The notes under the pieces are model-generated. The model saw only the letters and a program-made list of their open reading frames with translations. It was not told the origin of the DNA and made no database searches. Positions 4,283-32,847 of a stretch of 55,968 nucleotides of DNA are shown here, piece by piece; position 1 is the stretch's first letter; the number at the start of each line of letters is the position of its first letter. The stretch is from a virus. The DNA is taken from the IMG/VR virus record IMGVR_UViG_3300044846_003320, positions 1-55,968 of that record; one strand, 5' to 3'. The position numbers and the translations under genes were made by a program.

Positions 4283-4723
4283 ATGAAAATTAAAAAGAAC
4301 GGAGAAATAATAAATCTAAGTGAATCAGATTTAAATAGAATTATAGAACATACTAAAAGATTAGACGAAGGACTAGGTAGAAGAATTATGTCTGGCTTTA
4401 AGGGTATTGGGGGTATGTTTAAAGGCACAGGATACGACTACACCAAATACGCTTACCAATTAAGTGGTGCAATAAACGAATTAAATGAGGAATTAGTAGA
4501 GACTAAGAAAGAGTTACAGAAGATAGTTGACAAATCTAATAGGTCTAAGATGACAAATGTTTCCTTCGATAGACTGAGTACACATATTGCAGATGCAATG
4601 GACGCTTATCAAATGGTTATCGATACAAATGAAATTATTATAGAAGATTTAGATGCTTCAGTTTCAAGTGAAAGGGGGGGTGATAGACCCTCTAATAACC
4701 CCGGAAACCAATTTACACAATAA
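4283..4723 (+). CDS. N-terminally tagged helical protein, 146 aa
   Basis: The N-terminus carries a clear copy of the shared tag (IINLSESDLNRIIEHTKRL), then DEGLG, a plausible (L)xE processing point. The rest is predicted alpha-helical with heptad-like spacing (LNEELVETKKELQKIVDKS) and ends in a glycine/asparagine-rich tail. Unknown family. The tag and the promoter element suggest a virion or internal-head protein, by inference. Its 3' end overlaps the convergent 4713-4985 gene by 11 bases. Confidence 0.7.
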   Translation: MKIKKNGEIINLSESDLNRIIEHTKRLDEGLGRRIMSGFKGIGGMFKGTGYDYTKYAYQLSGAINELNEELVETKKELQKIVDKSNRSKMTNVSFDRLSTHIADAMDAYQMVIDTNEIIIEDLDASVSSERGGDRPSNNPGNQFTQ

Positions 4724-4985
4724 TCTCATAATAAAAGTATAAATCATTACCGTCGATACCTACGTATAGTTGCGTGTGTTTTTTTTTGTCTAACCTCTCT
4801 TTTGTTATTTCACTATCCTCCATTTTAAATCTAACTATTTCACCATTAATTCCTTTTATCTTATCCCATCTAATTTTACTATCATTAGGAACATAAGTAA
4901 TCGGACTTTTTTTTTCTTTAACTTCTACCCTTTTCTTAGGTGTGGTTTTTTCTAATGACTCAGATTTAACTTTTTTTCTACTCAT
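4713..4985 (-). CDS. Small basic hypothetical protein, 90 aa
   Basis: 90 residues. The first ~30 are rich in Lys, Arg and Glu (MSRKKVKSESLEKTTPKKR) and probably disordered. The remainder looks like a small beta-rich fold (GEIVRFKMEDSEITKERL, LYVGIDGNDLYFYYEIIV). No family recognised. The start is supported by a close promoter: TATATTTG ends 5 bases before the ATG with a TTG 20 bases further upstream, so the message would be nearly leaderless. Confidence 0.65.
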   Translation of the reverse strand: MSRKKVKSESLEKTTPKKRVEVKEKKSPITYVPNDSKIRWDKIKGINGEIVRFKMEDSEITKERLDKKKHTQLYVGIDGNDLYFYYEIIV

Positions 4986-4989
4986 AATA

Positions 4990-5020
4990 CAAATATATAT
5001 ACTTATTTAAAAAAAAACAA
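4990..5020 (-). promoter_or_regulatory. Bacteroidota-type promoter, TTG-N20-TATATTTG
   Basis: On the minus strand TTG (5020-5018) then 20 bases then TATATTTG (4997-4990). The ATG at 4985 follows after 4 bases, the same tight spacing as at 16980-16992. Confidence 0.5.
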
Positions 5021-5027
5021 TATTTAT
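5020..5027 (+). promoter_or_regulatory. Putative late promoter element ATATTTAT
   Basis: ATATTTAT followed by ATAAATAAA, 24 bases before the ATG at 5052. It overlaps back to back the promoter of the divergent gene. Confidence 0.45.
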
Positions 5028-5051
5028 ATAAATAAATGTGACTATTAAACA

Positions 5052-6527
5052 ATGGAACAACAAGAATTTTTAGAAAAACTATTTAATACTTTAATCAAAA
5101 ATCGTTTAAATTATAACCCCGTTACTAATATAGAAATTAATATATGTGACATTAACTCTCATATCGGAAAATGGAATGTAAATAAGGTACAACTTAAAAA
5201 GGACAGTTATCTGGGTACGGAGGTTAGAAAATGTTTAAGAAATTTATACGGTGTTACTGAAGATGAATCCGATACTTTGTGGGATATGATTAGAATCCAT
5301 TTAAAGAAATTAATATTTGTGGAAAATGCGTATGAGGTTTTATATGATGATTATGTACAATATGAATCTGATCCTTATCGTATAAACGGTTACAAATTGA
5401 AAGATCTTAATGATTTTATTGATTTTATGGGTGAGATTTGGTACGGAGATTTTAAAAGTGATGTATACGGTGATGAAAAAATTAATTTCTTAGATATGTT
5501 GGATAAGAGTGAGTACGAATACATCCAAAGTGAGTTATTCGACTTAATAGAGTCTTCTTGGGAACCAAATGATGAATATAGAAGTATTAATGAAGATATT
5601 GAAAGGTATGATGAGGAGGAGAAAGAGTTTAACCCCCTTAATGATGATTTAGCAACAAAAGTACAATACGAAAAAGTTTTTAAGGCATTCGATAGTAATC
5701 CCGATAAAATATTTGACTTATTAAAAGTTTTTGATTTTCAAAATAATGAACAAGGTGAAAAATATGAAAAAGAATATAATTTTATCTATAAGTATTTAAC
5801 AGAATATAATAATAGAACACCAAAATACATAAGAATAGTTTTCGATGCAGATGATTTATCAGGTATGTTTGTAGATGATAGGGATTATGACATACAAGAT
5901 ATGGTTAAAAACTATCTAAGTGGTGATTGGGATTATGATACTACTTGGGAATGTATGGATTTTGATTCTTGGTTGTTTGATAAAATAGATGAATCTAATA
6001 TTAAAACACTTAAAGAACATTATTTAAAAGATTTAGAAGGTGAAGAATCAGAAGAAGACTTTAAGGAGTTTGTTGAAAATGAGTTTGGTAGTGATATTGG
6101 TTGCGCCGCCAGTGACGCACAATACAGCGCAGATATAGATTACTTACATTCTGATTTTGAAAATGGTATTGAGGATTATTTAAGTGGTTTTGGTGGTAAA
6201 TTACAAAATAAAGTGAATAGTGATGGTAATCTTAATATGGGATTAGAATATGTCGCAGATTTAGAAATTGGAGAACTCACACAATCTCCTTTCTTTCAAG
6301 AGTCTCTTTTAGGTATTTTAGAAGATGATTATCCTGATAGTTTTTACGATATTTATAATAATATCATTGAATCAGAAAAGGAGGGTTACAGTTCAGAGTA
6401 TAATTATTTTTTACCTGAAGATAAAATTAGTATTAATACAGATAAACATTTTAGATATGGTGGTGCGGGAAATATAGAATGGAATTATTTTAATGAAATA
6501 TTATCAGACAAACTATCTTATTATTAA
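5052..6527 (+). CDS. Large acidic hypothetical protein, 491 aa
   Basis: A very acidic, aromatic-rich protein dominated by Asp, Glu and Tyr (for example DDRDYDIQDMVKNYL and WDYDTTWECMDFDSWLFD). There is no signal peptide, membrane segment or catalytic motif that I recognise. Its composition and the way it is built of short D/E/Y-rich helices resemble the 24569-25639 product; the two may be distant paralogues, but this is only an impression. Extreme acidity could suit a DNA mimic or an internal-head protein. The preceding ATATTTAT element suggests late expression. Confidence 0.7.
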   Translation: MEQQEFLEKLFNTLIKNRLNYNPVTNIEINICDINSHIGKWNVNKVQLKKDSYLGTEVRKCLRNLYGVTEDESDTLWDMIRIHLKKLIFVENAYEVLYDDYVQYESDPYRINGYKLKDLNDFIDFMGEIWYGDFKSDVYGDEKINFLDMLDKSEYEYIQSELFDLIESSWEPNDEYRSINEDIERYDEEEKEFNPLNDDLATKVQYEKVFKAFDSNPDKIFDLLKVFDFQNNEQGEKYEKEYNFIYKYLTEYNNRTPKYIRIVFDADDLSGMFVDDRDYDIQDMVKNYLSGDWDYDTTWECMDFDSWLFDKIDESNIKTLKEHYLKDLEGEESEEDFKEFVENEFGSDIGCAASDAQYSADIDYLHSDFENGIEDYLSGFGGKLQNKVNSDGNLNMGLEYVADLEIGELTQSPFFQESLLGILEDDYPDSFYDIYNNIIESEKEGYSSEYNYFLPEDKISINTDKHFRYGGAGNIEWNYFNEILSDKLSYY

Positions 6528-6538
6528 TAAAATTTTAT

Positions 6539-6546: not shown

Positions 6547-6578
6547 TATCATACGAGAACTAAAGTTAAAAAAATAAT

Positions 6579-7031
6579 ATGAATTCAAGACAAAAATTTA
6601 TATCCACATTAATAGACTTCCTGAATAAAAGGTATGGTAAAATGTCCAACCCAAATAAAGACTTTAATCTTTTTAGTAATGTATTGGGGTACGCAACGGA
6701 AAAGGTTAGACCAGAATTAGTTAATATATACGATATAGAGTATCGTTCTGACTTATATTATGAGATTATTAATAAATTTGTTAGGGATAACTATGGTGAC
6801 GGTAATAATGCATTACCTGGAGACAGAATACGTTTAATTAACATGCCTGATGATCCTAACCCAATAGAACCTAACACTACAGGTACTGTTACATCAATAG
6901 ATACAATTAATATGTTCGATGAAGATCTTTTAAACGTTGATTGGGATAACGGTAGAATTTTAAATTTGATTGTGGGTATTGATGAATTTGAGGTTATTGA
7001 TAAAGATGAACAAAATAATTTTAAACAATGA
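6579..7031 (+). CDS. DUF4314-domain protein
   Basis: 150 residues. The first ~75 residues are helical and unassigned. The C-terminal ~70 residues fit DUF4314, a small SH3-like barrel: PGDRIRLINMPDDPNPIEP, then TTGTVTSIDTI, then VDWDNGRILNLIVGIDEFEVI. The biochemical role of the domain is unknown; it is common in phage and plasmid proteins. The stop overlaps the next start (ATGA at 7028-7031), so the two genes are probably translationally coupled. Confidence 0.75.
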   Translation: MNSRQKFISTLIDFLNKRYGKMSNPNKDFNLFSNVLGYATEKVRPELVNIYDIEYRSDLYYEIINKFVRDNYGDGNNALPGDRIRLINMPDDPNPIEPNTTGTVTSIDTINMFDEDLLNVDWDNGRILNLIVGIDEFEVIDKDEQNNFKQ

Positions 7032-8050
7032 AAGATTTAATTAGGAAAATATTAAAAGAGGAGTTTACACACCCGAACCATCAAAAGTTTTTAGATGGTG
7101 TGGTTAATTCTTTATTAGAAACTATATATATTTCACCGTCAAATAACATGACTTCGTTTGGATCTGTTAGTGAGATGGAAGATATTGGTGTTTTTGATAT
7201 CGATCTCGAAAGAATAAGACATGAAGATAAATATATAAAACAATTAGGGTGGGACTATCATTATGATCCTGAAGACGTATATGATGAAGGATATTATTTC
7301 AGAATAAATAACCCAAAACAACAATATAATTCAGATGAATTTTATTATGAAATTGTTTATGATTGGTTAGATACTTTGGTGGAAAAGGGGGTATTGGATT
7401 ATAATGAAGATTTCGGAGATGCGGGTGAATGGGTTTTATTGGAAGATGATATTTTACTAAAAAGTAAATTGTTTATTTTTAATTGTACTGTATGGAGAAC
7501 GTTATTAAAAGATGGATATGAATTATTTGGGTGTGAGAGTTCCGCTAACCGAATCTCAATTATGGGAAAACTTAATAGTGTTTACGACATTGATGACTCT
7601 TTTTCTATGGATTATGTAGTAAACGAATTTTTCAGAAAATTACCATATAAGTTAAAAGATATGGGTATTAAAATGATTATACCTTCAGATAATGAAACAC
7701 TGAATGAAAGTATAGTTGGTGATTTTATTGAATTCGGAAAAAGGGAATTATCATTAGGTGATGGATTTAGAGTTAATTTAACTGATAATGGTGATGACAT
7801 TGAGACATTGGCGAATTATGATATGATAGATGGTGAGATTAATGTCCTAACAAGAGATAGGGCAACTCCAGATATAATTAGATCCATTGCACATGAAATG
7901 GTACATCATAAACAAAATGAAAGAGGTGATTTAAGAGGTAATCCTGATGAGGGTGAAGATGGGTCACCTTGGGAAGATGAGGCGAACGCAAAGGCGGGTG
8001 AGTTACTTAGGGTTTTTGGGAAACAATATCCTGAGATTTATGATATATAA
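7028..8050 (+). CDS. Tagged zinc metallopeptidase-like protein (HExxH)
   Basis: 340 residues. It opens with a short tag-like helix (MKDLIRKILKEEF). The C-terminal third carries a gluzincin-type active site: IAHEMVHHKQNERG supplies HExxH, and ~25 residues later WEDEANAKAGELL offers the third, glutamate ligand. This spacing is typical of SprT/IrrE-like peptidase domains. An ETLNES sequence just before the peptidase domain matches the (L)xE cleavage pattern seen in the capsid protein, so release of the enzyme domain by the prohead protease is conceivable. Coupled to the DUF4314 gene by an ATGA overlap. Peptidase fold likely; substrate unknown. Confidence 0.7.
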   Translation: MKDLIRKILKEEFTHPNHQKFLDGVVNSLLETIYISPSNNMTSFGSVSEMEDIGVFDIDLERIRHEDKYIKQLGWDYHYDPEDVYDEGYYFRINNPKQQYNSDEFYYEIVYDWLDTLVEKGVLDYNEDFGDAGEWVLLEDDILLKSKLFIFNCTVWRTLLKDGYELFGCESSANRISIMGKLNSVYDIDDSFSMDYVVNEFFRKLPYKLKDMGIKMIIPSDNETLNESIVGDFIEFGKRELSLGDGFRVNLTDNGDDIETLANYDMIDGEINVLTRDRATPDIIRSIAHEMVHHKQNERGDLRGNPDEGEDGSPWEDEANAKAGELLRVFGKQYPEIYDI

Positions 8051-9559: not shown

Positions 9560-9567
9560 ATAAATAT
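9560..9567 (-). promoter_or_regulatory. Putative late promoter element ATATTTAT (HNH gene)
   Basis: The minus strand reads ATATTTAT at 9567-9560, 25 bases before the HNH ATG at 9534. Together with 9535-9542 this forms a divergent pair. Confidence 0.4.
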
Positions 9568-10117
9568 GAAAATTATAATTACTGAAAATCAATTAAAAAG
9601 ATTAATAATTGAAAGTGACAATAGAAGTGATGGCACTAAATTAATCGCCAGTCAAAATTTTTGGGATTGGTTAAGGTGGCATGAGGGTAGTCCAACCAAA
9701 AAAGGAGATCCGTTATTAAAGGCATACAAAGATACCGTAGGCGTTTGGACTATTGGTTATGGACATACAGGTGAAGAAGCGTATGAGGGTAACGTAATAT
9801 CTAAAAGTAAGGCAAATGATCTATTTATTAAGGACGTGAATGAGGCCGCAAAATGTGTAAAAACATTTTTAAATTCTTGGAAGGAAACAAATCATGAGGG
9901 ATATAAACTTAAACTGAATGAATATGAGGCACTCATTTCATTAGTTATTAATAGTGGGTGTGAGGGAGTGAGAACATCTGATTTCATTCAAAAACTTAAA
10001 AAAGGTAACTATGATGATGCAGCAGAACTAATTAAAACCTATAGATCAAAAGGATTAAAAAATAGGCGTAATGTAGAATATGAATTATTCAAAAACTCAC
10101 AATACATTAAGGATTGA
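9566..10117 (+). CDS. T4-type lysozyme (GH24) with N-terminal tag
   Basis: 183 residues. A perfect copy of the shared tag (MKIIITENQLKRLIIES) precedes a complete GH24 muramidase that hydrolyses the MurNAc-GlcNAc bond of peptidoglycan. The catalytic triad fits: Glu in WLRWHEGS, Asp in AYKDTVGVWTIGYG, Thr in GHTG. The downstream Leu- and Asn-rich helices (ALISLVINSGCEG, FIQKLKKGNYDDAAELI) and NRRNVEYELF match the C-terminal lobe. There is no signal peptide or SAR segment, so classical holin-mediated export is possible. The tag ends in LIIES, an (I)xE site, which raises the possibility that the enzyme is packaged in the head and trimmed. Late promoter element upstream. Confidence 0.85.
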   Translation: MKIIITENQLKRLIIESDNRSDGTKLIASQNFWDWLRWHEGSPTKKGDPLLKAYKDTVGVWTIGYGHTGEEAYEGNVISKSKANDLFIKDVNEAAKCVKTFLNSWKETNHEGYKLKLNEYEALISLVINSGCEGVRTSDFIQKLKKGNYDDAAELIKTYRSKGLKNRRNVEYELFKNSQYIKD

Positions 10118-10161: not shown

Positions 10162-11799
10162 ATGAAATACATTATATCTGAAAATCAATATAAGATATTA
10201 CTTAAAGAAGATAGGGTAGAATTCTTAAGAAATCAAAATGTAATTGATCCAGAAACATTAGACCAAGCGGTAGAGGGTGAAAATGAAAGAGAAGATGAAA
10301 GAGAACCGGGAGGTGGTAGAAATAGAAGAATTAACGTTAAACCTATCGAAAATCATGAGGGTATCGATATCGCATATATTGTTACTAGTAGAAATGGTAA
10401 ACAATCAATAAAATTATCGCCAGAAATATTTCAAGACATTGTAGATGCCGACCCATCGAACAATAAACAATATGTTCAGTGGATGATTAAAGTGTTTATG
10501 AATCATATTAACGAAAATGATTTCGAACAAGCGGTTAGATTTTTAGCGGAAGATTTACCTGAAGCGAATGAATTTTTAGGTGTTTTCGATAAAGTTAAAA
10601 GTAAAAAAGTATTTAAAAGAAGTGCACCTAATAGACCTAACGCACCTCAAAATGTGACAGACATCAACCAATACAGCGATCTAGCACACCTATATAGTGT
10701 AGTGAGTCCCTTTGTTGGTGCCGAAGATGAAGACGAAGATGGGGAAAGTAAGATTTGGAAAAGTTTGAAAAAATTCGTTGACTTAGGTGAGGCAAGACTA
10801 GCATATCGAGATAATGACGTATTAGTATATACACCATTAACAAGGGATTCGAGTTGTGAACCTTTAGGTGGTTTAGCCTCTTGGTGTACTAGAAGAGAAG
10901 GTAACAGTTATTTTGATAGTTATAGAAGAAATAACCCAAAACCTGATGGGTCACTTTCCGATTATTATGTAATTATGCCTAAAAAACTTTTCGATGGTGA
11001 TGATGAAGGTGGTTTATATCCACTACAATTCCATTTTGAATCTAATCAAATACACGATAAAAATAACTCATCTATAGAAAACAGCAGTAAGTTAGATAGT
11101 GTTTTAAATAGATTTTCAGGACTTAGGGATTTCTTTAAGAAAGAATTGGGTGCGTTAGTAGAGATGGACGTAAGAAAAGGATCGGGACTTATGGAGAGTT
11201 CATATATTAAATATTTAAATAAGTTTGGTGGATCCGCGAAAGAACACATAAGCGGTGAAGCGTATGAAGAAGGTGTTAAGAATATTAAGAAATTAGCGTC
11301 AGAACAAACTGTACCATTAAAACAAAACAAATACTTAAATTGGTTATTAGATAATGTTGATGATGTCGATGTTACAGAGTATTTAGATAAGGATACTGTT
11401 GAGATGGTAGACTTTTCTGATATGAAGATTAAAACTCTACCAGACTTATCAGGATTCAAAAAACTAAGTCATTTAGCAGCCATAAATTGTGGCCTTGATA
11501 AATTCCCACCTGCGGATTACTTACCATTGGACACATTGGTAATGCTTTCATTAAGTAATAATAATATTGTGGAAATACCTGGTGAGGGATATGAAAAATT
11601 AAAAACTGTATTTGGAATATCTGCAGGTGGTAACCCGATTAAAAAAGTTAACAACGAAACATTAAAGAAAATGTGTACTAAAGAAGGTGCTACCATCGTT
11701 AGACTTTCTTTCGACACTAATGGTTTAGAAGGTGAAAATAAAGAAGAATTCTACAAGATGAAAGATGAGTTCTGTCAGGGGATAATGTGGTCAATATAA
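10162..11799 (+). CDS. Tagged protein with WCT-type domain and leucine-rich repeats
   Basis: 545 residues. Tag MKYIISENQYKILLKEDR, then an acidic, probably flexible segment. Residues ~230-330 contain ASWCTRREGNSYFDSY, SDYYVIMPKKLF, YPLQFHFESNQIHDKNN, a pattern I associate with uncharacterised large-phage proteins carrying a WCT(A/R) motif. The C-terminal ~120 residues are leucine-rich repeats (IKTLPDLSGFKKLSHLAAINC, LVMLSLSNNNIVEIPGEG), a protein-binding fold. LRRs in a phage suggest recognition of a protein partner. Virion location is inferred from the tag and the late promoter element; function unknown. Confidence 0.75.
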   Translation: MKYIISENQYKILLKEDRVEFLRNQNVIDPETLDQAVEGENEREDEREPGGGRNRRINVKPIENHEGIDIAYIVTSRNGKQSIKLSPEIFQDIVDADPSNNKQYVQWMIKVFMNHINENDFEQAVRFLAEDLPEANEFLGVFDKVKSKKVFKRSAPNRPNAPQNVTDINQYSDLAHLYSVVSPFVGAEDEDEDGESKIWKSLKKFVDLGEARLAYRDNDVLVYTPLTRDSSCEPLGGLASWCTRREGNSYFDSYRRNNPKPDGSLSDYYVIMPKKLFDGDDEGGLYPLQFHFESNQIHDKNNSSIENSSKLDSVLNRFSGLRDFFKKELGALVEMDVRKGSGLMESSYIKYLNKFGGSAKEHISGEAYEEGVKNIKKLASEQTVPLKQNKYLNWLLDNVDDVDVTEYLDKDTVEMVDFSDMKIKTLPDLSGFKKLSHLAAINCGLDKFPPADYLPLDTLVMLSLSNNNIVEIPGEGYEKLKTVFGISAGGNPIKKVNNETLKKMCTKEGATIVRLSFDTNGLEGENKEEFYKMKDEFCQGIMWSI

Positions 11800-11837: not shown

Positions 11838-11972
11838 ATGAATAAAGGTAAAAAAACAATCAGACTTACGGAATCAGAAATGGTTGAGATGATCGAAAGA
11901 ATCGTTAATGAAGTAAAAAGAGAAAAAAGAAATCAAATTTCTGAGTCACGTAGAAGATATAATAGAAAATAG
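11838..11972 (+). CDS. 44-residue protein consisting almost only of the shared tag
   Basis: A small ORF of 44 codons starting at ATG 11838 after an A-rich leader (AAATAAA). Its N-terminus (KKTIRLTESEMVEMIERIVNE) is a near-consensus copy of the tag found on the larger proteins. It is followed by a basic tail (VKREKRNQ, SRRRYNRK), with an ISES sequence between them. A tag with only a basic tail is what one would expect of a small DNA-associated internal-head peptide, which is inference. It follows the LRR gene by 38 bases, probably in the same transcript. Confidence 0.65.
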   Translation: MNKGKKTIRLTESEMVEMIERIVNEVKREKRNQISESRRRYNRK

Positions 11973-14405: not shown

Positions 14406-14661
14406 ACTCTTTATTTAATTTTTTAATAATTTCACTAACTGAGGTATCATAAATAACATTATAACCATTGTCTTTAAAAAAGACAATCTTATCACCCATT
14501 TTACGTGAATATTCGTCTAACATTTTATTATCAACATAACCAACATTTTTAATTAATCCAAAATATTCGATATATGTGTCGTATTTAGTAAGGTAGAAAT
14601 CGTACCTATATTTTTTACCATCTGGGTACCACTCATCATGTTTGAAGTCTATATTGATATG
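14386..14661 (-). pseudogene. Vsr/PD-(D/E)XK-like homing nuclease remnant inside the fractured clpC
   Basis: An open frame of 91 codons begins just after a TGA and has no ATG, GTG or TTG before its conserved core; an ATA/ATC start or a -1 shift from the N-half gene would be needed. The core, WYPDGKKYRYDFYL then YDTYIEYFGL, and the later KMLDEYSRKMGDKI and FFKDNGYNVIYD fit the C-terminal domain of Vsr-like phage homing nucleases (YDFYL...IEYxGL). It overlaps the end of the N-half gene by 13 bases and the start of the C-half gene by 20. The two halves of clpC are in the same frame; this frame is offset. Family assignment likely; activity doubtful. Confidence 0.65.
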
Positions 14662-14705
14662 TCAGATATTTTCTTAACCTTGATTTTAGTATCACCTAAT
14701 ACACA
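14649..14705 (-). other. N-intein (18 residues) of split ClpC
   Basis: [18 protein letters not shown] then TAG. Cys1 and the GDT of block A are present. An N-intein this short is characteristic of the atypically split inteins known from phage-derived metagenomic sequences. Confidence 0.85.
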
Positions 14706-18219: not shown

Positions 18220-19014
18220 ATGGATATTATAAAAATTACTGAACAAGATATCAATGATATCATCCAAAAAGAAAACATTGACTTCTCTTCATTTGAAGTG
18301 AGATCCACACTTAACCCAAAAATATTCGATAAAGAACAACATATGTATGAGGATATTAGAAGGAGACTTCTTATGATTGCAGATGATTTCTTTGAAACAT
18401 TAAATGTAAGTTGGGTAGACATAAATGACATTATTTTAACTGGTAGTTTGGCGAACTTTAATTGGTCAAAATTTTCAGATGTAGACTTACATATATTAGT
18501 AGATTTTGGTGAAGTTGACGAAAACGAAGAGTTAGTTAAAGAATATTTCAACTCCAAAAAGAATTTATGGAATGAAAAACACGACATAACTATTAAAGGT
18601 TATGATGTGGAATTATATATGCAAGATACTGAAGAACCACACGTTTCTAGTGGTGTATATTCTATTCTATGGGATGGATGGGTAGTACAACCTGACTCAA
18701 CTAAAAAAGAAATAGACGCAAAAAAAGTAGAACAAAAAGTTAATAATATTATAGACACAATACATGATGTCTATTATATGTATAAAAATGAGGAATACGA
18801 TAAAACTATCAGAATGATTAAAAACCTAAAAGAAAAAATCAAAAAAATGAGACAAACTGGTTTAGATCGTGAAGGTGAGTATTCGTTTGAGAATATCGCA
18901 TTTAAAGTATTAAGGAGAACCATGTATTTAGATAAATTAAGTGAAATTGAGAATAGTTCATATGATAAATCTTTAACATTAGATGAGTCTATGTTAAGAA
19001 TTAAAACATTATAA
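18220..19014 (+). CDS. Tagged nucleotidyltransferase-fold protein
   Basis: 264 residues. A tag-like N-terminus (MDIIKITEQDINDIIQKE) precedes a Pol-beta-type nucleotidyltransferase core: LTGSLANFNWSKFSDVDLHILV gives the GS motif and the DxD metal ligands, and GYDVELYMQD supplies the third acidic residue. The C-terminal ~100 residues are helical, with a basic coiled-coil stretch (MIKNLKEKIKKMRQTG). Enzymes of this fold transfer NMPs to protein, RNA or small molecules; the substrate is unknown. It ends with TLDESMLR, another (L)xE site. The ATATTTAT elements suggest late expression, which with the tag suggests a virion-borne enzyme. Confidence 0.75.
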   Translation: MDIIKITEQDINDIIQKENIDFSSFEVRSTLNPKIFDKEQHMYEDIRRRLLMIADDFFETLNVSWVDINDIILTGSLANFNWSKFSDVDLHILVDFGEVDENEELVKEYFNSKKNLWNEKHDITIKGYDVELYMQDTEEPHVSSGVYSILWDGWVVQPDSTKKEIDAKKVEQKVNNIIDTIHDVYYMYKNEEYDKTIRMIKNLKEKIKKMRQTGLDREGEYSFENIAFKVLRRTMYLDKLSEIENSSYDKSLTLDESMLRIKTL

Positions 19015-21852: not shown

Positions 21853-22350
21853 ATGGGAAAAAAAATTAGAATATATGAATCAGAGATTAGGAGAGCAACT
21901 AGACGTAAATTAATGGAACGTTATGTTGACGAGGACTATGAGATGAGAGATACTTATAGTAAAAAAGATTTTAAGCCAACACCAAAAGAAAGAGGTGTTG
22001 AGGATGTGTTTGGTAAGTATGGTGACGATATGGATCCTGCGGTTGTTAGATATATGAGAAAAAATCCCGATCACATTCTAAGAAGAATGGCGAAATTATA
22101 CCCAGACATCTATATGAGACACATTCCATTACAATCTAACACAGAACTAGAAATGGGGGATGAAATGATAGGTGAGGAAACTCAAATGACTGTCTATGAT
22201 GACCCAACAAAATTGGCATCTGATTTATCAAATGATAAAATTAAAAGGGATGATACTGTAGGTCTAAAAGACGCACAAGGTAACATAAGAACCGCAACAT
22301 TTGGTGAATCAAAAAAAGACTTAATTAAAAAATTCATAAAAAGAAAGTAA
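21853..22350 (+). CDS. Tagged hypothetical protein, 165 aa
   Basis: A tag variant at the N-terminus (KKIRIYESEIRRATRRKLME), then a charged mid-section with MDPAVVRYMRKNPDHILRRMAKLYPDIY and a C-terminal DAQGNIRTATF segment ending in a basic helix (KKDLIKKFIKRK). No catalytic motif. The gene starts 3 bases after the previous stop and is followed 3 bases later by the next tagged gene, so it is part of an operon of tagged proteins just ahead of the packaging genes. Confidence 0.7.
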   Translation: MGKKIRIYESEIRRATRRKLMERYVDEDYEMRDTYSKKDFKPTPKERGVEDVFGKYGDDMDPAVVRYMRKNPDHILRRMAKLYPDIYMRHIPLQSNTELEMGDEMIGEETQMTVYDDPTKLASDLSNDKIKRDDTVGLKDAQGNIRTATFGESKKDLIKKFIKRK

Positions 22351-23097: not shown

Positions 23098-24531
23098 ATG
23101 AAAAGAAAAAATATCATTAACGAAGTAACTAATAGAGTTATAAAAGAAAAATATAGACTTAACAAAATCGTTGAGGCAATTGAATATGATCCAGAACAAC
23201 CAGAAAGGATGAATCCCGGATTAGAAAAAAGACTTAGAAGTGGTGAACATATCTTTGGTAAGAGTAAATCAATACCTGTTGGTTCGGAAGCACAAAATTA
23301 TTCTGAAAAACTGGCAAGTAAAAGATTTAAAGAAATTATTAATAAAGTAAAGAGATATCATGGAGTCCAAAACATCAACCCTATGATGATGCAACAGATG
23401 TTTCAGATTATGGGCGAAGTTAGTCAAATTGAGTCCAGACATAAAGAAGCTTTAGAACAATTGGCAATTGATATAGTTTCCGAAGAATTTGACATTCCGG
23501 ATCAAATGTTAGAGGCAACATTATCACCTCCCGGTACTGATTTAGGGTTTAATGATCAAGATGAAGAGGAAGAAGATGAACAAGACTATGGTTCAGAGTT
23601 TGAGACACCAAAAGCCCCAAAAAGTGCGGAGAGAATGGAAGAGTTAGAAATGGAGGTAGATAAAAGAAGAGTCATAAACGCTTTGATGCAAGGGGCATCT
23701 AAAAAAGGACACTATATTTTCCATATGGTTGCTGACGAATTAGATACTATTGACCCTAGACTTATGGGGTTATATGGTAAGCTAATGTCTTTAGCAGATT
23801 TCCAATATTGGGTGATTCCCGATACTACTATGACAGGACAAGCTGGAGGTGTAGAGAAGATTGAATGGAGAAAGGCTAAATCGCCTGAAGATTCTGACGA
23901 GGAAGAAGAAATGGATAAAGTTAATGTTGAGGAAGGAGACGAGATACCTGTAGTAGTAGCAAAGGCTTGGATATTCCCGCTTTTAGTACATGAACTTATT
24001 AAAGGTACATTAGAATTATCCGCAATCAATTGGGCGGACGGTCACTTAGATTTTGAAGAACAATCAGAAGTAATTAAAAAGGCAGATACACCAGAAGGTG
24101 AAATATGGGGGATGAGATTAGGTCCTGGTATGTGGGAGAAGTTCTTAGATTGTGTAGGATCTGAAAATTACGATATGAAACAATGGTTATTTCAAGAATT
24201 AACTAAATTGCCGGCAAAACAATTTCATGAATTTATGAAAGAAATTTTAAGTGGTAGCCAAAAGTGTAAAGAAGTAATCCAAACATTAAAAGACTTACAC
24301 GCAGAAGATCCTTCAGATAGTTTAGAAGACATATTCGATGAAACAGGTTATGATGATATGGACGATATTATAGATAACTTAGATAATGAAACCGAAGAAG
24401 AACCAACTACTGATGAACCAAAAGAATTAGATTATTCCGAAATGTCACCTAATGAAATACAAGGGTTGATAGATGATGCATTAGATAACGGTGACTTCGA
24501 TACGGTTGCGAAACTACATAAATATTTATAA
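23098..24531 (+). CDS. Tagged acidic structural-type protein, 477 aa
   Basis: Tag-like N-terminus (KNIINEVTNRVIKEKYRL). A long mixed helical protein follows with two acidic runs (DEEEEDEQDYGSE; DSDEEEEMDKV) and an acidic C-terminal third (DDMDDIIDNLDNETEEEP). Central text includes VAKAWIFPLLVHELIKGTLELSAINWADGH and WGMRLGPGMWEKFLDCVG. No family recognised. Its position immediately upstream of the terminase cluster and its tag suggest a head-associated role. Confidence 0.7.
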   Translation: MKRKNIINEVTNRVIKEKYRLNKIVEAIEYDPEQPERMNPGLEKRLRSGEHIFGKSKSIPVGSEAQNYSEKLASKRFKEIINKVKRYHGVQNINPMMMQQMFQIMGEVSQIESRHKEALEQLAIDIVSEEFDIPDQMLEATLSPPGTDLGFNDQDEEEEDEQDYGSEFETPKAPKSAERMEELEMEVDKRRVINALMQGASKKGHYIFHMVADELDTIDPRLMGLYGKLMSLADFQYWVIPDTTMTGQAGGVEKIEWRKAKSPEDSDEEEEMDKVNVEEGDEIPVVVAKAWIFPLLVHELIKGTLELSAINWADGHLDFEEQSEVIKKADTPEGEIWGMRLGPGMWEKFLDCVGSENYDMKQWLFQELTKLPAKQFHEFMKEILSGSQKCKEVIQTLKDLHAEDPSDSLEDIFDETGYDDMDDIIDNLDNETEEEPTTDEPKELDYSEMSPNEIQGLIDDALDNGDFDTVAKLHKYL

Positions 24532-24568: not shown

Positions 24569-25639
24569 ATGGTAGGTACTTTAAACCCCAATTTTAAAAA
24601 ATTAATACTAAAATATATTAGTTACCAGAAGCATAACTATGGTGACGATTACACGTTGTATATTGACGATATGATAAAATACTTTGACGATATAGATAAA
24701 GTAGATATATTTTCAGGTGTTTTTAATTATATTATTGAGGAAGAAGATGAGGACCCATTAGACTATATAGACTTAAATGAATTAAATGATCGGTTTTATT
24801 CTGATACTATAATAAAAATATTGAGGGATTCAGGTTGGTTTGAAAAATATTTTAATTTAGATAGGTACAAAGATTACGTAACTAAAGAAGGTAGAGCAAT
24901 ACCAATATTCAATGATATTAAATGGGGTGGAGATACCCCCTATTTAATTATCGATGGGTGGCATGAATTATCAACATTATACCACTCTAATGATAGAAGT
25001 GTTGCCGAACTTGTATTAGGTGAAGATTCGTCAGAACTTTTTAGTGTTGATAGTGTTGACTTTATGGGTGAAGTGTGGAATGAATTAAATGAAAAATCAT
25101 TAAAACACATAATAGATTATATTAAGGATAATGGTTTTATTGGCGGAGAATTAGAGTATGATGAAGATCCAGATGGTGGCGGATTGAGTGAGGATATGTT
25201 GGCCGACAGTGATTTATTAGGTGAATTAATAAATGATGAAGATATGTTTGATGACTTAAAGAGGGAATTGGAAAATTTTTATAGGTGGTCATACAACTCC
25301 GCAGCGGAATCCGAAGTGTTTAAGTCTATAAGTAGTGATATAGTAGATCTTTTGGGTTCTGAAGGTGAGTGGGATGTAATCAAATCAAAAAAAGAAGGTG
25401 GTTCAAATAAACATATTTTAAAGTTCGACATTAGTAAAATATTTATGGATATATTAGAAAGATTCGTGGAGTGTGAAGGTAAATTACCTGAAGATGAATA
25501 TTCGGATTTTTTACAGGTCTTAAGTGCAACATTAGAATGTGAAGGAGAAATGTTAGAAACACCCGATATGGGATATTTTTATCCTGATAGTAGTACGATA
25601 TCTGAACATTTAAATGAAAATTTATTAGGAAACTTATAA
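24569..25639 (+). CDS. Acidic hypothetical protein, 356 aa
   Basis: 356 residues, rich in Asp, Glu, Tyr and Leu (YTLYIDDMIKYFDDIDKVD, NEDMFDD-like stretches, FYRWSYNSAAESEVFKSISS). It has no tag, no signal and no catalytic motif. Composition resembles the 5052-6527 product. The C-terminus ends EHLNENLLGNL, containing another LNE. The stop overlaps the next start (TAATG). Confidence 0.65.
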   Translation: MVGTLNPNFKKLILKYISYQKHNYGDDYTLYIDDMIKYFDDIDKVDIFSGVFNYIIEEEDEDPLDYIDLNELNDRFYSDTIIKILRDSGWFEKYFNLDRYKDYVTKEGRAIPIFNDIKWGGDTPYLIIDGWHELSTLYHSNDRSVAELVLGEDSSELFSVDSVDFMGEVWNELNEKSLKHIIDYIKDNGFIGGELEYDEDPDGGGLSEDMLADSDLLGELINDEDMFDDLKRELENFYRWSYNSAAESEVFKSISSDIVDLLGSEGEWDVIKSKKEGGSNKHILKFDISKIFMDILERFVECEGKLPEDEYSDFLQVLSATLECEGEMLETPDMGYFYPDSSTISEHLNENLLGNL

Positions 25640-26493
25640 TGAAGATTAAACTAACGGAAAGACAATATTTAAAAGTTATTACTGAAAATCAAAACCCTAA
25701 CATTGATAGGTTATTACAAAAGTTTTTTGACGATACTAGATCCTTAGATGAAGACGAAAAACTATATTATTTTTTCGATATATATGAATTTAATGAAAAA
25801 ATGATGGGAGTTAGTGATAGATTGTATGATTGGTTTAAATATAGTCTTTTAAGTGACATTAAAATGATTAATCGTAGAACTCTTAGTAAATACCAAAATA
25901 AAATTAATAATCTTTTAGAATTGTTAACTACAAAAGAAACTAAAAAAATAATAGATTCTAATAAAAACGTTTTAGAAAAAATTAAAGAATTAATTAAATT
26001 AGAAAGTGTTATACCAAAATATTTTAAAAGTGAAATCTTAAAAGAGTTAATTGATGGATTATTGTTTGATTCCATACAATATCTGTTTAACAATTATGAA
26101 CCTAAAGAAGCGATTAGACAATCATCCATTCTATCTGATCATTTAGGTATAAATAGAATGGAAAATATAGAACCATTAGTTAAAGATTTCGCAGAAAAAA
26201 ATGGGTTAACTATCATACCTAAACATAAAGGGTTCACTCTCCAAAAAGATGAAGGTAGTATGGTTAGGGATTTAATTAATTATATGAAAGATATACCAGA
26301 AATACCTAAGAAAACAAAAAGAGGGTTTTTAGACTTTATTGGTAGTCATTATACGGGTGGGCAATATTCTACCTTTTGGAGTGCGGTTAATAAGGCGGGT
26401 ATTATACAAAAAGTAGGTGGTGGTAATAACGTCACATACGAATTAGGTCCTAACTACAAAGCGTATGAAGAAGGTAATGTAGTTGCATTTTAA
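25639..26493 (+). CDS. Tagged hypothetical protein, 284 aa
   Basis: A clear tag copy (MKIKLTERQYLKVITEN), then a largely helical body (LLELLTTKETKKIIDSNKN, AIRQSSILSDHLGINRM). The last ~90 residues look like a small DNA- or protein-binding winged-helix domain (MVRDLINYMKDIPEIPKKTKRGFLDF, STFWSAVNKAGIIQKVGGGNNVTYELG). It directly precedes TerL. A head or packaging accessory role is plausible but unproven. Confidence 0.7.
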   Translation: MKIKLTERQYLKVITENQNPNIDRLLQKFFDDTRSLDEDEKLYYFFDIYEFNEKMMGVSDRLYDWFKYSLLSDIKMINRRTLSKYQNKINNLLELLTTKETKKIIDSNKNVLEKIKELIKLESVIPKYFKSEILKELIDGLLFDSIQYLFNNYEPKEAIRQSSILSDHLGINRMENIEPLVKDFAEKNGLTIIPKHKGFTLQKDEGSMVRDLINYMKDIPEIPKKTKRGFLDFIGSHYTGGQYSTFWSAVNKAGIIQKVGGGNNVTYELGPNYKAYEEGNVVAF

Positions 26494-29500: not shown

Positions 29501-29695
29501 GAACAAGTGGAAAAACAAACTAAGGCAATGTTAGAGAGTTGGGTAAATGTGTCAAACATCCAAAGTAAACCAATGATTAATGGACAACAACACATTAATC
29601 CCTTCTATACTAACACACCAACGTATAATCCAGTCCACCCCAATAATGGTAATAATGATAATGGTGAATACAACTGGTTATTCGGAATTAAATAG
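26525..29695 (+). CDS. terL: Terminase large subunit (gp17-like) interrupted by an intein
   Basis: 1056 residues, of which 196-651 are an intein; the spliced enzyme is ~600 residues, close to T4 gp17. It is the DNA-packaging motor: the N-terminal ATPase has the variant Walker A KPRQAGVST (61-69) and Walker B FLVMDEAAF (~162-170). The C-terminal RNase H-like nuclease has YIMGVDVSRGDGKDSS, TIVDITGG and FNDDIIMAYAMA. The extein junction reads GGKIALIS | TPNGMDELYY, so the intein sits exactly at the ATPase coupling motif (TPNG, motif III). Late promoter element upstream. The next gene is the portal; tail sheath and tube genes, which lie between terminase and portal in T4, are absent here. Confidence 0.95.
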   Translation: MDRAEQLKIFARCLGDPTYAIETFLKTFDLTQKGMVPFKLYYKQKEIIKSYEKNNRNLVTKPRQAGVSTTTAAYIAVKTAFGDPDNPHKVLILANKQTLAQEFLKKVKDFLEQIPYWVWGLDESTDYLEINSKGHLKLKSNGCEIRALATSKDALRGFTPTFLVMDEAAFIDNGADVFGAALASLGTGGKIALISCVTDDTFIFTDKGLRQVSDFIDYGQPDNPNEGYYVDEYSILGKDKTRQSNILVNNGLQDTIKITTTNSFLEGTLTHKLWVYQSETKIYSWLPMGEIKEGDYVNIQYGYNLFGDDDKIEHNYIFNNKEKKPKKIYKEIDNDLSYLIGLYLSEGSSYKKYNKKGELVGVSITLTCGDFIGDSINNAGFNYSCHDGLHYTISSKYLGSLLENLGIDLSLTATKKFIPKKLLSLSKEKTIHLLKGFMDGDGYSDSVRGRIGINISSKKMCLQIRYMLSNLGILTDYQEGINKGSKLIPTKSNYYRLSATSIDALKYFELIGFNFERKEKKKDSIKKVNLNNRYRIIPNGKIILRRIIDDNNLVRRFRGSNLKLTSIRLSDKNKTSNLSVNIFKSFIDYIENNLGIDITKYNIDKILMEKSKWVRVSKIEKSKNKTYDFSLPETDDFWCHSVLYNNILGHQTPNGMDELYYKTYDKSKTGDNNFNIVEMKWYQDIRYNRGLYWVRGDEKEEEIKCESLGRTKLRWEYKGVIYETDESTIDYYEVMVKDGWKPLSPWYDEMSADMGDPKKIAQELDVSFIGSGGNVIEDEYIVYHEENFVFDPNFSAEAEKSMWIWKKPEVGHKYIMGVDVSRGDGKDSSTIVILDFENLEQVAEFKHKLPPDMLAEIVYKYGNMYNAYTIVDITGGMGVATVLKLLEMEYEYLHYDDPKSRKLSEKYSKTVYKQGDKVPGFNVGNTRLQMVSELEEHIRENKTIIRSRRLISELRTFVYKNGRPDHMEGFNDDIIMAYAMAIFIVQTSFKKLEQVEKQTKAMLESWVNVSNIQSKPMINGQQHINPFYTNTPTYNPVHPNNGNNDNGEYNWLFGIK
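27110..28477 (+). other. LAGLIDADG-type intein in TerL (456 residues)
   Basis: Begins CVTDDTFIFTDKG (block A) and ends CHSVLYNNILGHQ before Thr+1. Two dodecapeptide motifs, LIGLYLSEG (~residues 337-347 of the precursor) and LLKGFMDGDG (~432-443), mark a DOD homing endonuclease domain, which looks intact. The terminal residue is Gln instead of the usual Asn, a known but uncommon variant. Confidence 0.92.
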
Positions 29696-29719
29696 AATGT
29701 AAACATTTAGAATTTTGAT

Positions 29720-29758: not shown

Positions 29759-31669
29759 ATGGCAAAAAAAACAATATTCCAACAATTAAACGATTTATTT
29801 GGCCCAGAGGTTGTGAAACCGCAAAATAAATCAAGGTATTCAATTAACGATAAAGAACTTCTTAAAACTAAATCTAAAGAAGAATATGATTTTGAAAAGT
29901 TAAAAAGACAACAAGATTCGTATCTTTCTAATATGTGGCAAAAAGTGGATAATGAAATCTACCAACATTCCATATATTATGAAACAACTAGGTTAGCATC
30001 TTATGCGGATTTTGAGGGTATGGAGTTTTTTCCCGAAATCGCCGCCGCATTAGATATAATGATGGAAGAATCTACCACATTAAATTCGGATAACAAAGTT
30101 ATTAACATATTTTCTGAAAGTAGGAGAGTTAGAAGAATATTAGAAGACTTATTTTTTAATAGATTAGATATACATACATCATTACCTATGTGGACGAGAA
30201 ATGTTTGTAAATATGGTGATGATTTTTTATTCCTCAATATAGATAGTGAAGAAGGGATTACAGGTGTTAAACAATTACCAAATATTGAGATTAGTAGAAA
30301 GGAAAATGAAGGTTTCGGTGAAAATCCTGCGAATGCCGAAACTGATAAAATTAACCCAATTAAATTTATATGGGGTCAAAGAAATATTGAGTTTAATGCG
30401 TGGCAAATCGCACACTTTAGGTTGTTGGGCGATGATAGGAGACTACCTTACGGAACTTCAATGTTGGAAAAAGCGAGAAGGATATGGAAACAATTGTTAC
30501 TTTCTGAAGATGCGATGTTGATATACAGAGTAACTAGGGCACCTGAAAGAAGAATCTTTAAAATATTTGTCGGTAACATTGATGAGAAAGATGTACCCGC
30601 ATATGTTAACAATATTGCGAATAATTTTAAAAGAAGTCCTGTTATTGATCAAAACACGGGGCAGGTAGACACTAGATATAATCAAATGGCTCAGGACCAA
30701 GACTATTTTATCCCAGTAAGAGACACAAACGCACCTTCACCAATAGAGACTCTACCAGGAGCATCTAACCTATCTGAGATTGCAGACATTCAATACCTTC
30801 AGAAAAAATTGTTTACTGCACTTAGAGTACCTAAACCATTCTTAGGATTTGAGGAGGTTAATGGTGAAGGTAAAAACTTAGCGTTACAAGATATTAGATT
30901 TGCTAGAACAATCAATAGAATTCAACAAGCAATGATACAAGAATTAAATAAGATTGCTATCATTCATTTATATATTTTAGGGTTAGAAGATGAGTTAGAA
31001 AACTTTACACTAACATTGAATAACCCGTCTACTCAGGCAGAGATGTTAAAGGTAGAACAAACTCAATTAAAGGTAACCCTATATAAAGATGTAGTATCAG
31101 ATGCGGGTAATGGATTCGGAACAATGTCAATGACTAGGGCGAAAAAAGAAATTTTAGGAATGTCTGAAGAAGAAATAAGAAATGATTTAGAACAACAAAG
31201 ATTAGAAAAAGCTGCCGCAGCAGAAATGGAACAAACCGCAACTATCATTAAGAAGACAGGTATCTTTGATAGGGTAGATAAACTTTATGGTGATTTTTCT
31301 ACATTAACCGGTGGTGTACCCGCAGAGGGTGGTGGTGAAGAAGGTGAAGGCACAGGTGGTGATGACTTAGGTGGGTTCGGAACAGACACTGGAGGTGACT
31401 TAGGTGGAATCGGAACAGACACTGGTGGTGCAGAACCCGCACCAACCGAAGAGTCAATAAAGAAAAAAGACAATCTTTTATTAGAGCAAGGAAGAAGAAG
31501 ATACGAAGAGAAAGTTAATAAATATCAAAGAATTTATTTAAATAGACTTATGGAAAGTTTAGATAAGGATGAAAGGGTTTTTAACTTAGATGAGGTAGAA
31601 AAGGATACTGAAATACTAAACTCTAAAATTAGTGATATGGCAAAAGAAATCGATAATTTAATTAAATAG
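29759..31669 (+). CDS. Portal vertex protein (gp20-like)
   Basis: 636 residues. The order and text fit a T4-like portal: LASYADFEGMEFFPEIAAALDIMMEEST, RNVCKYGDDFLFLN, WQIAHFRLLGDDRRLPYGTSMLEKARRIWKQLLLSEDAMLIYRVTRAP, and FTALRVPKPFLGFEE. The dodecameric portal forms the head vertex through which TerL pumps DNA. A glycine/threonine-rich low-complexity segment (~residues 520-560, GGEEGEGTGGDDLGGFGTD and a repeat) interrupts the C-terminal helical region. Sits immediately after terL. Confidence 0.93.
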   Translation: MAKKTIFQQLNDLFGPEVVKPQNKSRYSINDKELLKTKSKEEYDFEKLKRQQDSYLSNMWQKVDNEIYQHSIYYETTRLASYADFEGMEFFPEIAAALDIMMEESTTLNSDNKVINIFSESRRVRRILEDLFFNRLDIHTSLPMWTRNVCKYGDDFLFLNIDSEEGITGVKQLPNIEISRKENEGFGENPANAETDKINPIKFIWGQRNIEFNAWQIAHFRLLGDDRRLPYGTSMLEKARRIWKQLLLSEDAMLIYRVTRAPERRIFKIFVGNIDEKDVPAYVNNIANNFKRSPVIDQNTGQVDTRYNQMAQDQDYFIPVRDTNAPSPIETLPGASNLSEIADIQYLQKKLFTALRVPKPFLGFEEVNGEGKNLALQDIRFARTINRIQQAMIQELNKIAIIHLYILGLEDELENFTLTLNNPSTQAEMLKVEQTQLKVTLYKDVVSDAGNGFGTMSMTRAKKEILGMSEEEIRNDLEQQRLEKAAAAEMEQTATIIKKTGIFDRVDKLYGDFSTLTGGVPAEGGGEEGEGTGGDDLGGFGTDTGGDLGGIGTDTGGAEPAPTEESIKKKDNLLLEQGRRRYEEKVNKYQRIYLNRLMESLDKDERVFNLDEVEKDTEILNSKISDMAKEIDNLIK

Positions 31670-31689
31670 AACTTTTTTATAAATTCAGA

Positions 31690-31697
31690 ATATTTAT
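31690..31697 (+). promoter_or_regulatory. Putative late promoter element ATATTTAT
   Basis: ATATTTAT followed by TTATAAAAAA, 14 bases before the ATG at 31712. Confidence 0.5.
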
Positions 31698-31711
31698 TTA
31701 TAAAAAAGAAC

Positions 31712-32476
31712 ATGGAGAATTTTGGTAATATTAAAGATACCTTTAAAAATTTAGTAGTAGAGTCTATAATTAAAAAAAACGAAAAGAGTAAAAAACTATT
31801 TTCTAAATTTTTAAAAACAATTAAAGAAAATAAAACATTAAAGAATCAATATCTAATTTATAGTAATTTACAAAATAGTAGGTTCGATGATGGTGTTGAG
31901 GCGAAAGAATTCGTTAAGGAGAATATTGAACTACTTAAAGGTTTAAACGAAGGACATATCGTAAAAGGTAATGAGTTTTTCGTTAAATTACTTAAAGGTA
32001 ATAAAATCATAAAAGAAAATCAAGAATTCTATAATAAAATATCTTATTTAGTTAACACCGAAAAAACACCTTCGAATATTAAAAAAATTAATGAGACAAT
32101 TAATTATATAGTTAAAAATATGTTAGAAAAAGAGGAAGTAAAAGAGGTTGTTACGGAAAGTGTATATTTACCACCTAGTGTGTTAACAAAATTGGCAGTA
32201 AATAAGTTTAATTCTAGATATTCTAACATTAGTGAGTCAGAAAAAGAAATCATTAAAACAGTACTTAATGGTACAAGTGAAGATAAAGAAAATATTTTCA
32301 ATAAATTAAAAAGAGAGTGTATTGATGGTATCGATACTAAATTAAATGAGTCTTCTGATTTAGATCTTAAAGATAAACTATTAAAAGTTAAGGATAAACT
32401 ACTGAACAATAGTTTCAACATAGATTCTTTTACTACTGATATTACAAGATTACACGATTTAAAAGAATCAATATAA
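31712..32476 (+). CDS. Helical head-region protein, 254 aa
   Basis: 254 residues, lysine- and leucine-rich and almost entirely helical. It begins MENFGNIKDTFKNLVVES, where LVVES is a potential (V/L)xE cleavage point, and later contains KEVVTES and DTKLNESSD. Lying between portal and protease, the slot held in T4 by the small core proteins gp67 and gp68, it is a candidate prohead core or internal protein. No sequence family recognised. Confidence 0.65.
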   Translation: MENFGNIKDTFKNLVVESIIKKNEKSKKLFSKFLKTIKENKTLKNQYLIYSNLQNSRFDDGVEAKEFVKENIELLKGLNEGHIVKGNEFFVKLLKGNKIIKENQEFYNKISYLVNTEKTPSNIKKINETINYIVKNMLEKEEVKEVVTESVYLPPSVLTKLAVNKFNSRYSNISESEKEIIKTVLNGTSEDKENIFNKLKRECIDGIDTKLNESSDLDLKDKLLKVKDKLLNNSFNIDSFTTDITRLHDLKESI

Positions 32477-32496
32477 CTAATAAAAAAATAAGAAAA

Positions 32497-32847
32497 ATGA
32501 AAAAAAGAGTAATAAGACTTAGTGAATCTGATTTACAAAGAATTGTAAAAAGAGTGATTAAAGAAAATATGATTAATGAATTAGGTGGGATGGACGATGG
32601 ACACCCTAGATTCGGTGATGTTAAATTTTCTGATTTATCGAGAGACGAAATATTAAGAATGGGTGGTAGTGAATACTCAGAAGATTCTGACGATGATTTA
32701 ACTGATGACAATGAATATTATGACTTTGATGGTGATATTGATGACTTAAAGGGTGGTCGTAGAGGGAAATTGCCAATTATGAGGTCAATGCCTTCACGAC
32801 ATAATACCGGAGATAGACCGTTCAGAAGAGGAAATAGAAAAATGTAA
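32497..32847 (+). CDS. Tagged small head-region protein, 116 aa
   Basis: The tag is a textbook copy (KKRVIRLSESDLQRIVKRVIKE). An acidic central part (DLSRDEILRMGGSEYSEDSDDDLTDD) and a basic Arg-rich C-terminus (GGRRGKLP, RHNTGDRPFRRGNRK) follow. Position between portal and protease, with the tag, fits a core/internal head protein. A hairpin terminator follows at 32888. Confidence 0.72.
   Translation: MKKRVIRLSESDLQRIVKRVIKENMINELGGMDDGHPRFGDVKFSDLSRDEILRMGGSEYSEDSDDDLTDDNEYYDFDGDIDDLKGGRRGKLPIMRSMPSRHNTGDRPFRRGNRKM

Follow-up and report, generated by a model that had tools for sequence, protein, structure and literature searches.

What makes proteins of unrelated families begin with the same few residues? 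The question is raised by a stretch of viral DNA of 55,968 bases (30% G+C), which is the whole of IMG/VR record IMGVR_UViG_3300044846_003320, carries a T4-type head locus and is called the window below. A first-pass annotation had named eleven places in the window where one short N-terminal motif recurs on different proteins, and had read it as a capsid-targeting signal that is removed by a gp21-type protease and loads a set of enzymes into the prohead. Our analysis indicates that these leaders are probably capsid-targeting propeptides that work like the capsid-targeting sequence (CTS) of phage T4, that they fall into several classes, and that as many as tens of proteins in one genome may carry them. 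The available text of PMC9026906 describes T4 gp21 as cutting after L/I-X-E and its phiKZ counterpart after S/A-X-E, and proposes that the CTS may let T4-like phages take various proteins into their capsids.

All eleven places are present as first written, and leaders at 747-884 and 2770-2865 are probable additional members. We distinguish class A (long, LTESDL...RVIKE), class B (short, IITESQYK.LLKE), class C (MNLQEHIRKVLREE or MKNIIKKILKEE) and class D (LTEEI.RM..LMGY...LNE). The leaders, each with its open reading frame (ORF) and a slash at the predicted cut, are as follows.

747..884, plus strand: class D leader (MKRNLTEEIYRMRKLMGY...KKYFLNE/Q) of ORF 606-2030, start codon and cut placed by eye
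2770..2865, plus strand: class D-like leader (MKNKIQSLNEQRERMKTLYEF...KLLNE/D) of ORF 2761-4050, by eye
4283..4348, plus strand: class A leader (IINLSESDLNRIIE/H) of ORF 4283-4723, 22.8 bits, a profile seed and member of a de novo cluster
7028..7060, plus strand: short class C leader (MKDLIRKILKE/E) of ORF 7028-8050
9566..9613, plus strand: class B leader (MKIIITENQLKRLIIE/S) of the phage lysozyme ORF 9566-10117, a profile seed
10162..10209, plus strand: class B leader (MKYIISENQYKILLKE/D) of ORF 10162-11799, which has a weak LRR match
11838..11912, plus strand: class A leader that makes up most of the 44-residue ORF 11838-11972
18220..18273, plus strand: tag-like N-terminal extension of the nucleotidyltransferase ORF 18220-19014, without [ILV]xE (IIQKE), a doubtful member
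21853..21918, plus strand: weak class A leader (KIRIYESEIRRATRRKLME/R) of ORF 21853-22350, 5.9 bits
22354..22392, plus strand: short class C leader (MTKGEIIKKLISE/K) of ORF 22354-23085
23098..23175, plus strand: leader of ORF 23098-24531, predicted cut E26/A27 from a family alignment
25639..25686, plus strand: class B leader (MKIKLTERQYLKVITE/N) of ORF 25639-26493
31712..31762, plus strand: N-terminal part encoded by the gene that follows gp20, ending LVVE/S, by eye and outside the counts
32497..32565, plus strand: strongest class A leader in the window (MKKRVIRLSESDLQRIVKRVIKE/N), of ORF 32497-32847 in the gp20-gp21 interval, 34.4 bits, a profile seed

By eye, ten of the eleven leaders of the first-pass list have [ILV]xE near their end, 18220 being the exception. 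Behind the leaders, ORF 606-2030 has a sub-threshold OmpA match in its mature part (with similar leaders in G049, G053 and L064), ORF 7028-8050 shows HEMVHH in a C-terminal part that looks metallopeptidase-like by eye and lacks a Pfam match, and the match of ORF 9566-10117 to Phage_lysozyme (1.4e-24) starts at residue 51. Two of the forms first listed as weaker gained from their relatives: the mature part of 21853 is homologous to the strongly tagged L141:2859 and L023:6343, and relatives of 23098 in two genomes have class A leaders (G051 and L068, by eye). Homologs of 25639 in L001, L003, L005 and L034 carry class B leaders as well. Nine of eleven homologs of 10162 (by eye) carry other leaders that end in [ILV]xE. 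ORF 11838-11972, which falls below the 60-residue cut-off of our initial ORF list, trails 10162 in the window as a leader-bearing miniprotein trails the leaderless homologs of 10162 in G041 and G046. Many displayed relatives of the segment at 31712..31762 end alike, with L009, L013 and L014 as exceptions.

The position of the motif is far from random. A search of IMG/VR with the major capsid protein gp23 of the window returned at least 600 rows, from which 80 loci were kept; a strict motif expression run on the window and 81 loci matched at 21 of 23,088 positions at N-termini and at 3 of 389,739 in the interior of proteins, which bears out the claim of a shared N-terminal motif. The profile search that the first-pass annotation had proposed for this genome and its relatives gave the same picture: a hidden Markov model (HMM) built from 19 leaders and run on 5081 called genes, with the seeds among the matches and some genes taken from contigs fetched by the leader pattern, yielded 230 N-terminal and 7 internal matches at 12 bits or more. 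Three of these (L031:9112, L068:11956, L074:6048) look like DNA-binding helix-turn-helix proteins by eye and are probably false; they were kept in the counts.

The same leaders emerged when no motif was given. We compared the first 28 residues of all proteins within a genome, excluding pairs with similar remainders, and found 7 window pairs at a score of at least 40, compared with none at residues 60-88 and one at the C-terminus. At 38 or more the window clusters were 4283/18220/21853/32497, 9566/10162/25639 and 7028/22354; the pair 49581/50485 was rejected as a tag, both being nucleotide-binding proteins. Pairs scoring at least 45 at the N-terminus, residues 60-88 and the C-terminus numbered 2/0/0 in the window, 88/0/0 in G038, 51/0/0 in G049, 126/1/0 in G051, 31/0/0 in G053, 25/1/0 in G004, 4/1/1 in G046 and 1/0/0 in G041, and 16/0/0 in immuto, 4/0/0 in Mel-JY01, 1/0/0 in T4, 1/0/0 in crAss001 and 0/0/0 in RM378. 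T4 served as a positive control: of its three pairs at score 38, one joins two proteins that carry the known CTS MKTYQEFIAEA, and the other two seem unrelated to the CTS. Clusters at score 38 comprised 47 proteins in G051 (of 309 with at least 90 residues) and 41 plus 8 in G038 (of 221), chance members being possible, and Sec signal peptides, recognized by eye, make up part of the clusters in immuto and other genomes.

What follows the leader is diverse. After its removal, 168 tagged proteins fell into 107 sequence families (E≤1e-3), some of them paralogous (one has 9 members, several in G051), and an alignment of 110 tagged proteins, whose rows include pattern-selected contigs, has a single common feature, MKKxIxLTESDLxRIVKxVIxE. 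In G051, identical leader residues are written with different codons in 202 of 516 pairs; such divergence within genomes argues that the peptide has been kept, rather than its DNA recently copied.

Does the leader end where a head protease would cut? The window holds the following genes of a T4-type head.

26525-29695: large terminase, by eye
29759..31669, plus strand: gp20 portal protein (phrog_213, 7e-63)
33457..35301, plus strand: gp21-type prohead protease (phrog_207, 9.5e-33) with an apparent intein, recognized by eye
35401..36756, plus strand: gp22-like acidic scaffold, assigned by position and synteny, PHROG match absent
36796..38550, plus strand: gp23 major capsid protein (phrog_138, 5.4e-66)
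36796..36975, plus strand: gp23 N-terminal propeptide ending SLLNE/S

Among annotated phages, this gp23 has its best matches in an uncultured 484-kb phage, Microcystis phage Mel-JY01 and Flavobacterium phage immuto, with part of the protein aligning at 40-43% identity. To avoid circularity, we called leaders with an end-blind profile of the first 12 columns only, run on loci L001-L080, on ten whole contigs or records and on the window itself. It gave 93 distinct N-terminal leaders, and [ILVM]xE stands 8, 9 or 13 residues after the anchor glutamate in 77 of them, compared with 888 of 12,382 control anchors (7.2%). Conservation is 3.8 bits at P1 and has dropped to 0.4 bits by P3' in a table that includes pattern-selected rows in which I, L or V was required. 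At P1', 15 of 144 leaders have a hydrophobic or basic residue, against 515 of 1152 residues slightly downstream (p 2e-17), and 42 of the 144 have glutamine; without the pattern-selected contigs the counts are 9 and 7 of 67. The site resembles that of the capsid protein itself: all 77 distinct gp23 homologs have [LI][LIM][NTS]E before the conserved domain, with L, I or M at P3 in 77/77 and A (47), S (22), T (6), N (1) or G (1) at P1', and the sites of immuto (IVSE/A) and Mel-JY01 (LISE/A) are alike.

Three further anchors speak for cleavage at such a site. The first is the family of 23098, encoded near the terminase, with 32 rows of which 7 lack the N-terminus. Among the remaining 25, leaders of 7-43 residues that cannot be aligned with one another end at one boundary, at which E stands in 25/25 and [ILMV]xE in 23/25; the two exceptions, L052 and L062, are nearly identical, and L028 and L037 have one common leader. 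The predicted cut falls within residues 20-26 of the AlphaFold model, where the predicted local distance difference test score (pLDDT) is below 50; block means are 84-90 for residues 31-60 and the model is mostly confident from residue 31 on. A fold search with it gave no PDB match at E≤0.001 and, in BFVD, one unnamed phage protein. The second anchor is a basic module, DL[AG]VWFGxKKKPKG, which lies in modular proteins downstream of gp23 at offsets from 7 to 273; of 30 distinct upstream 14-mers, 28 have [ILVM]xE directly before the module (background 2.1%, or 28% given an E). The third is exchange of leaders within cargo families: long and short forms alternate between G053:3697 and L056:14653 and between G051:144152 and G051:78974, and some YMFF proteins carry a 14-residue class C leader in place of the 22-residue class A one (L069, L187), with the terminal glutamate invariant in 14 of 14 aligned members. 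The cleavage-site half of the first interpretation is thus well supported at the level of predicted sites; the half on loading into the prohead is drawn by analogy with T4.

Among the modular proteins downstream of gp23, L042:6089, L060:4989, L064:8484, L069:12210 and others consist of modules, basic or Cys-rich, that recur along the chain with [IL]xE linkers between them; three match phrog_23735, some (L042, L060, L064, L069) contain a class A leader internally, and they look like polyproteins that would be processed in the head. The YMFF family (L057:7057 and 13 further members of alignment A3) is tagged, starts with YMFFSNLEQM and ends in a basic domain, KKTGTKLCARGKAAAKxKFDVYPSAYANGYAVQVCKG. 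Its AlphaFold model, with a mean pLDDT of 51, was not relied on; it shows the leader as a helix at 9-24 with low confidence.

Tagged genes and head genes also have an upstream element in common. Among genes with at least 30 bases of upstream intergenic space, TATTTAT precedes 22 of 30 tagged families and 14 of 24 head genes, compared with 288 of 1010 other genes (p 7e-7), while its reverse complement is not enriched (7/30 tagged, 156/1010 others); with at least 50 intergenic bases, the counts are 12/20 and 189/717 (p 0.0019). This suggests that tagged genes are under common control with head genes, from a predicted promoter that resembles a late promoter. The element is strand-specific, often reads ATATTTATA and lies mostly 15-50 bases 5' of start codons.

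To see how widely the leaders occur, we searched with a degenerate DNA pattern modelled on the long leader. It found 67 stretches in 66 viral contigs of IMG/VR, where a control pattern that reverses the residue order found none, and it had no match in a collection of cellular genomes (one for each of 84,980 species, contigs of at least 3 kb). Of the 38 contigs that reach 27 kb, 19 carry a phrog_207 gp21-type protease and 18 a phrog_138 gp23; the four largest without those head genes have many genes in common with gp23-bearing genomes, and G038 has 127-144 of its 299 genes in common with G049, G051 or G053. With the first 25 residues removed, 61 of the 67 loci have at least two further proteins in common with six gp23-bearing genomes; such contigs read as fragments of that lineage. 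Of the other six, L095 and L096 lie in contigs with gp23, L118 and L134 in contigs with neither head gene, and L100 and L140 in short contigs outside the head-gene search. The tag consensus hit only Agrobacterium phages in a phage collection, at E of at least 1, which we took as chance. The idea that a tag always sits in the gp20-gp23 operon was rejected, as among the rows displayed for 65 loci it is found there in some genomes only.

The cultured Flavobacterium phage immuto (NC_055915; host Flavobacterium sp. LMO8) has two repeated leaders of its own, MENFDLKKFLVEN... and MKKQILSEQF.RMQ.LAGIITE..., on the genes at 1803, 103806, 117631, 118632, 25061 and 111675. G051 encodes class B proteins of about 150 residues in several copies (76559-79426, 144152, 238754-242200).

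What the leaders are attached to is mostly of no known function, since only 13 Pfam families were matched among 110 tagged proteins; the proposed "set of enzymes" is too narrow a description. The matches comprise peptidoglycan-binding domains (4 members), lysozyme, SleB-type hydrolase, M23, M78, SET, DHH, nucleotidyltransferase, LRR and others, so that several of the recognizable cargos are cell-wall (peptidoglycan) hydrolases. Of the best 25 of 31 PHROG families matched, 11 are named endolysin, probably representing few proteins; others are a ParB domain, tape measure, tail lysozyme and proteases. A comparison set of 110 untagged proteins of 110-600 residues, which may contain other leader classes, matched 80 Pfam families, making the tagged proteins poorer in known domains; the 25 displayed include methylases, glycosyltransferases, epimerases, PhoH, dUTPase and DnaJ, as well as peptidoglycan-binding (3) and chitinase-type (2) domains. 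In G049 an untagged 152-residue lysozyme exists alongside one with a leader (MNLVKILRNIILE/Q), which means that the tagged enzyme is not necessarily the endolysin. Matches to defence systems among the cargo were weak and single (best E 0.00068).

Which known system does this resemble? Like the T4 CTS of internal proteins and Alt, which gp21 removes (available text of PMC9026906 and PMC3012670), the leaders are short, N-terminal and carried by unrelated, diverse cargo, end in L/I-X-E (77/93) and occur with a gp21-type protease and a T4-type gp23. They differ in sequence, in having several classes per genome and many more carriers, and in the modular proteins with internal sites; T4 gives one pair at score 45 or more, G051 126. 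By eye, MKTYQEFIAE and our leaders have only the terminal hxE in common, and profile A1 found no match in T4 and four other records, a search without a positive control. In phiKZ and SPN3US, too, many head proteins are cut after glutamate by a gp21 relative (about 50 head proteins in SPN3US; available text of PMC5694885 and PMC9026906). As described there, however, P3 is S/A in phiKZ and A in SPN3US, several propeptides exceed 100 residues, and identical short N-termini are reported only for two SPN3US paralogs; here P3 is I, L or V, and the S/A-X-E type was absent from the 77 of 93 end-blind leaders with I/L/V/M at P3 and from gp23 (L/I/M in 77/77). Sec signal peptides are likewise N-terminal and modular and recur in the same genomes as clusters of their own (by eye), but our leaders have an acidic end site and lack a hydrophobic core, none being visible by eye in the consensus. 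A search of the open-access literature, with preprints outside its scope, found no published description of such a system and no paper containing "LTESDL".

We propose that a tagged protein would be made late in infection and that its amphipathic leader would dock on the scaffold core of the prohead as it grows, before the shell closes. The gp21-type protease would then cut after [IL]-x-E, also freeing the gp23 propeptide and cutting the linkers between modules; the leader would be lost, and the mature protein would stay in the head with the DNA and be ejected into the next host. As we infer the docking, cutting and packaging, the system is filed as a probable, not proven, variant of the CTS system.

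Several observations weigh against this proposal. Two of the eleven homologs of 10162 (G041, G046) have no leader. Protein 18220, listed as a member in the first-pass annotation, has no site, and its eight homologs among those listed have no leader; it does not fit the set. At the usual spacing 16 of the 93 end-blind leaders lack the site, seven of them at any spacing tested, and the tags, with Q, N, S, E or D at P1', are unlike gp23 there (mostly A, S). In the gp22 scaffold [IL]xE occurs 640 times against 411 after shuffling; random proteins show an almost equal excess (805 against 603), and extra gp22 sites were dropped as support. Single PHROG matches (tape measure, tail lysozyme, ParB domain) could mean tail or non-virion carriers. 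Cell-wall cargo was dropped as a trait specific to tagged proteins, peptidoglycan-binding domains occurring in 4/110 tagged and 3/110 untagged. Nor did the idea that tagged genes are purely accessory gain support: they are not significantly less conserved, 12 of 50 being core against 308 of 1003 others (p 0.35). None of 11 homologs of T4 replication proteins, taken as a control, is tagged, a sample too small to inform.

Alternatively, the leader could be a localization signal for another place, such as the inner membrane, the tail or baseplate, or a replication compartment, with [IL]xE as the natural end of an amphipathic helix. The low-confidence helix at 9-24, the peptidoglycan hydrolases among the cargo and the single members that match tape measure and tail lysozyme families fit this account, which we nevertheless consider unlikely: helix ends leave unexplained why [ILMV]xE stands at one boundary below leaders that cannot be aligned, why it precedes a module 7-273 residues into proteins, and why it resembles the gp23 site. 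Less probable still is a role of the leader as an inhibitory pro-segment (zymogen) or stability tag; the prohead protease or some other protease would remove it, and it would not serve packaging. Lytic cargo such as lysozyme and the SleB-type hydrolase would gain from being kept off, and the cleavage evidence fits equally, but fold-specific inhibition is hard to reconcile with one leader on more than 100 sequence families, including a 44-residue miniprotein. Shared descent with N-terminal domains or chance similarity of low-complexity sequence, for which the paralogous family of nine and the three DNA-binding-like matches might speak, is very improbable given the 107 families left after leader removal, the synonymous codon divergence, the empty reversed-order control and the de novo pairing.

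Other features of the record lie outside this argument. Apparent inteins, recognized by eye, interrupt both the large terminase (26525-29695) and prohead protease (33457-35301) genes. In the gp20-gp23 interval of L012, L033, L035 and L044, GIY-YIG-like ORFs (by eye) stand immediately 5' of gp21, three of the four beginning like the gp21 N-terminus; they are probably mobile intron endonucleases in the protease gene. A Clp-type ATPase gene on the minus strand (12174-15371) is divided, by eye, between two ORFs, the first ending in an apparent intein N-part and the second opening with an apparent C-part (...ISHNTGKTT), which looks like a fractured gene with a split intein. The end of the window (49581-55793) holds a run of sugar-nucleotide-type genes, by eye dehydratase-, epimerase- and nucleotidyltransferase-like.

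A bolder and still tentative picture can be drawn, which we put forward at somewhat less than even confidence. An uncultured T4-like, often jumbo, lineage may have made cargo loading general, so that of its larger proteins some 10-20%, from more than 100 families, would enter the head behind interchangeable, protease-released leaders of several kinds; the modular proteins downstream of gp23 may be cut in the head into several basic peptides, and the heads may deliver a large effector set that is quickly exchanged, including cell-wall hydrolases, along with the DNA. Because immuto carries repeated leaders, a cultured phage exists in which the system can be tested. If true, one short sequence rule would predict which phage proteins are packaged and injected, a good share of the "hypothetical" genes of an uncultured lineage would become candidate infection effectors, and the T4 CTS idea would be extended to a large modular system.

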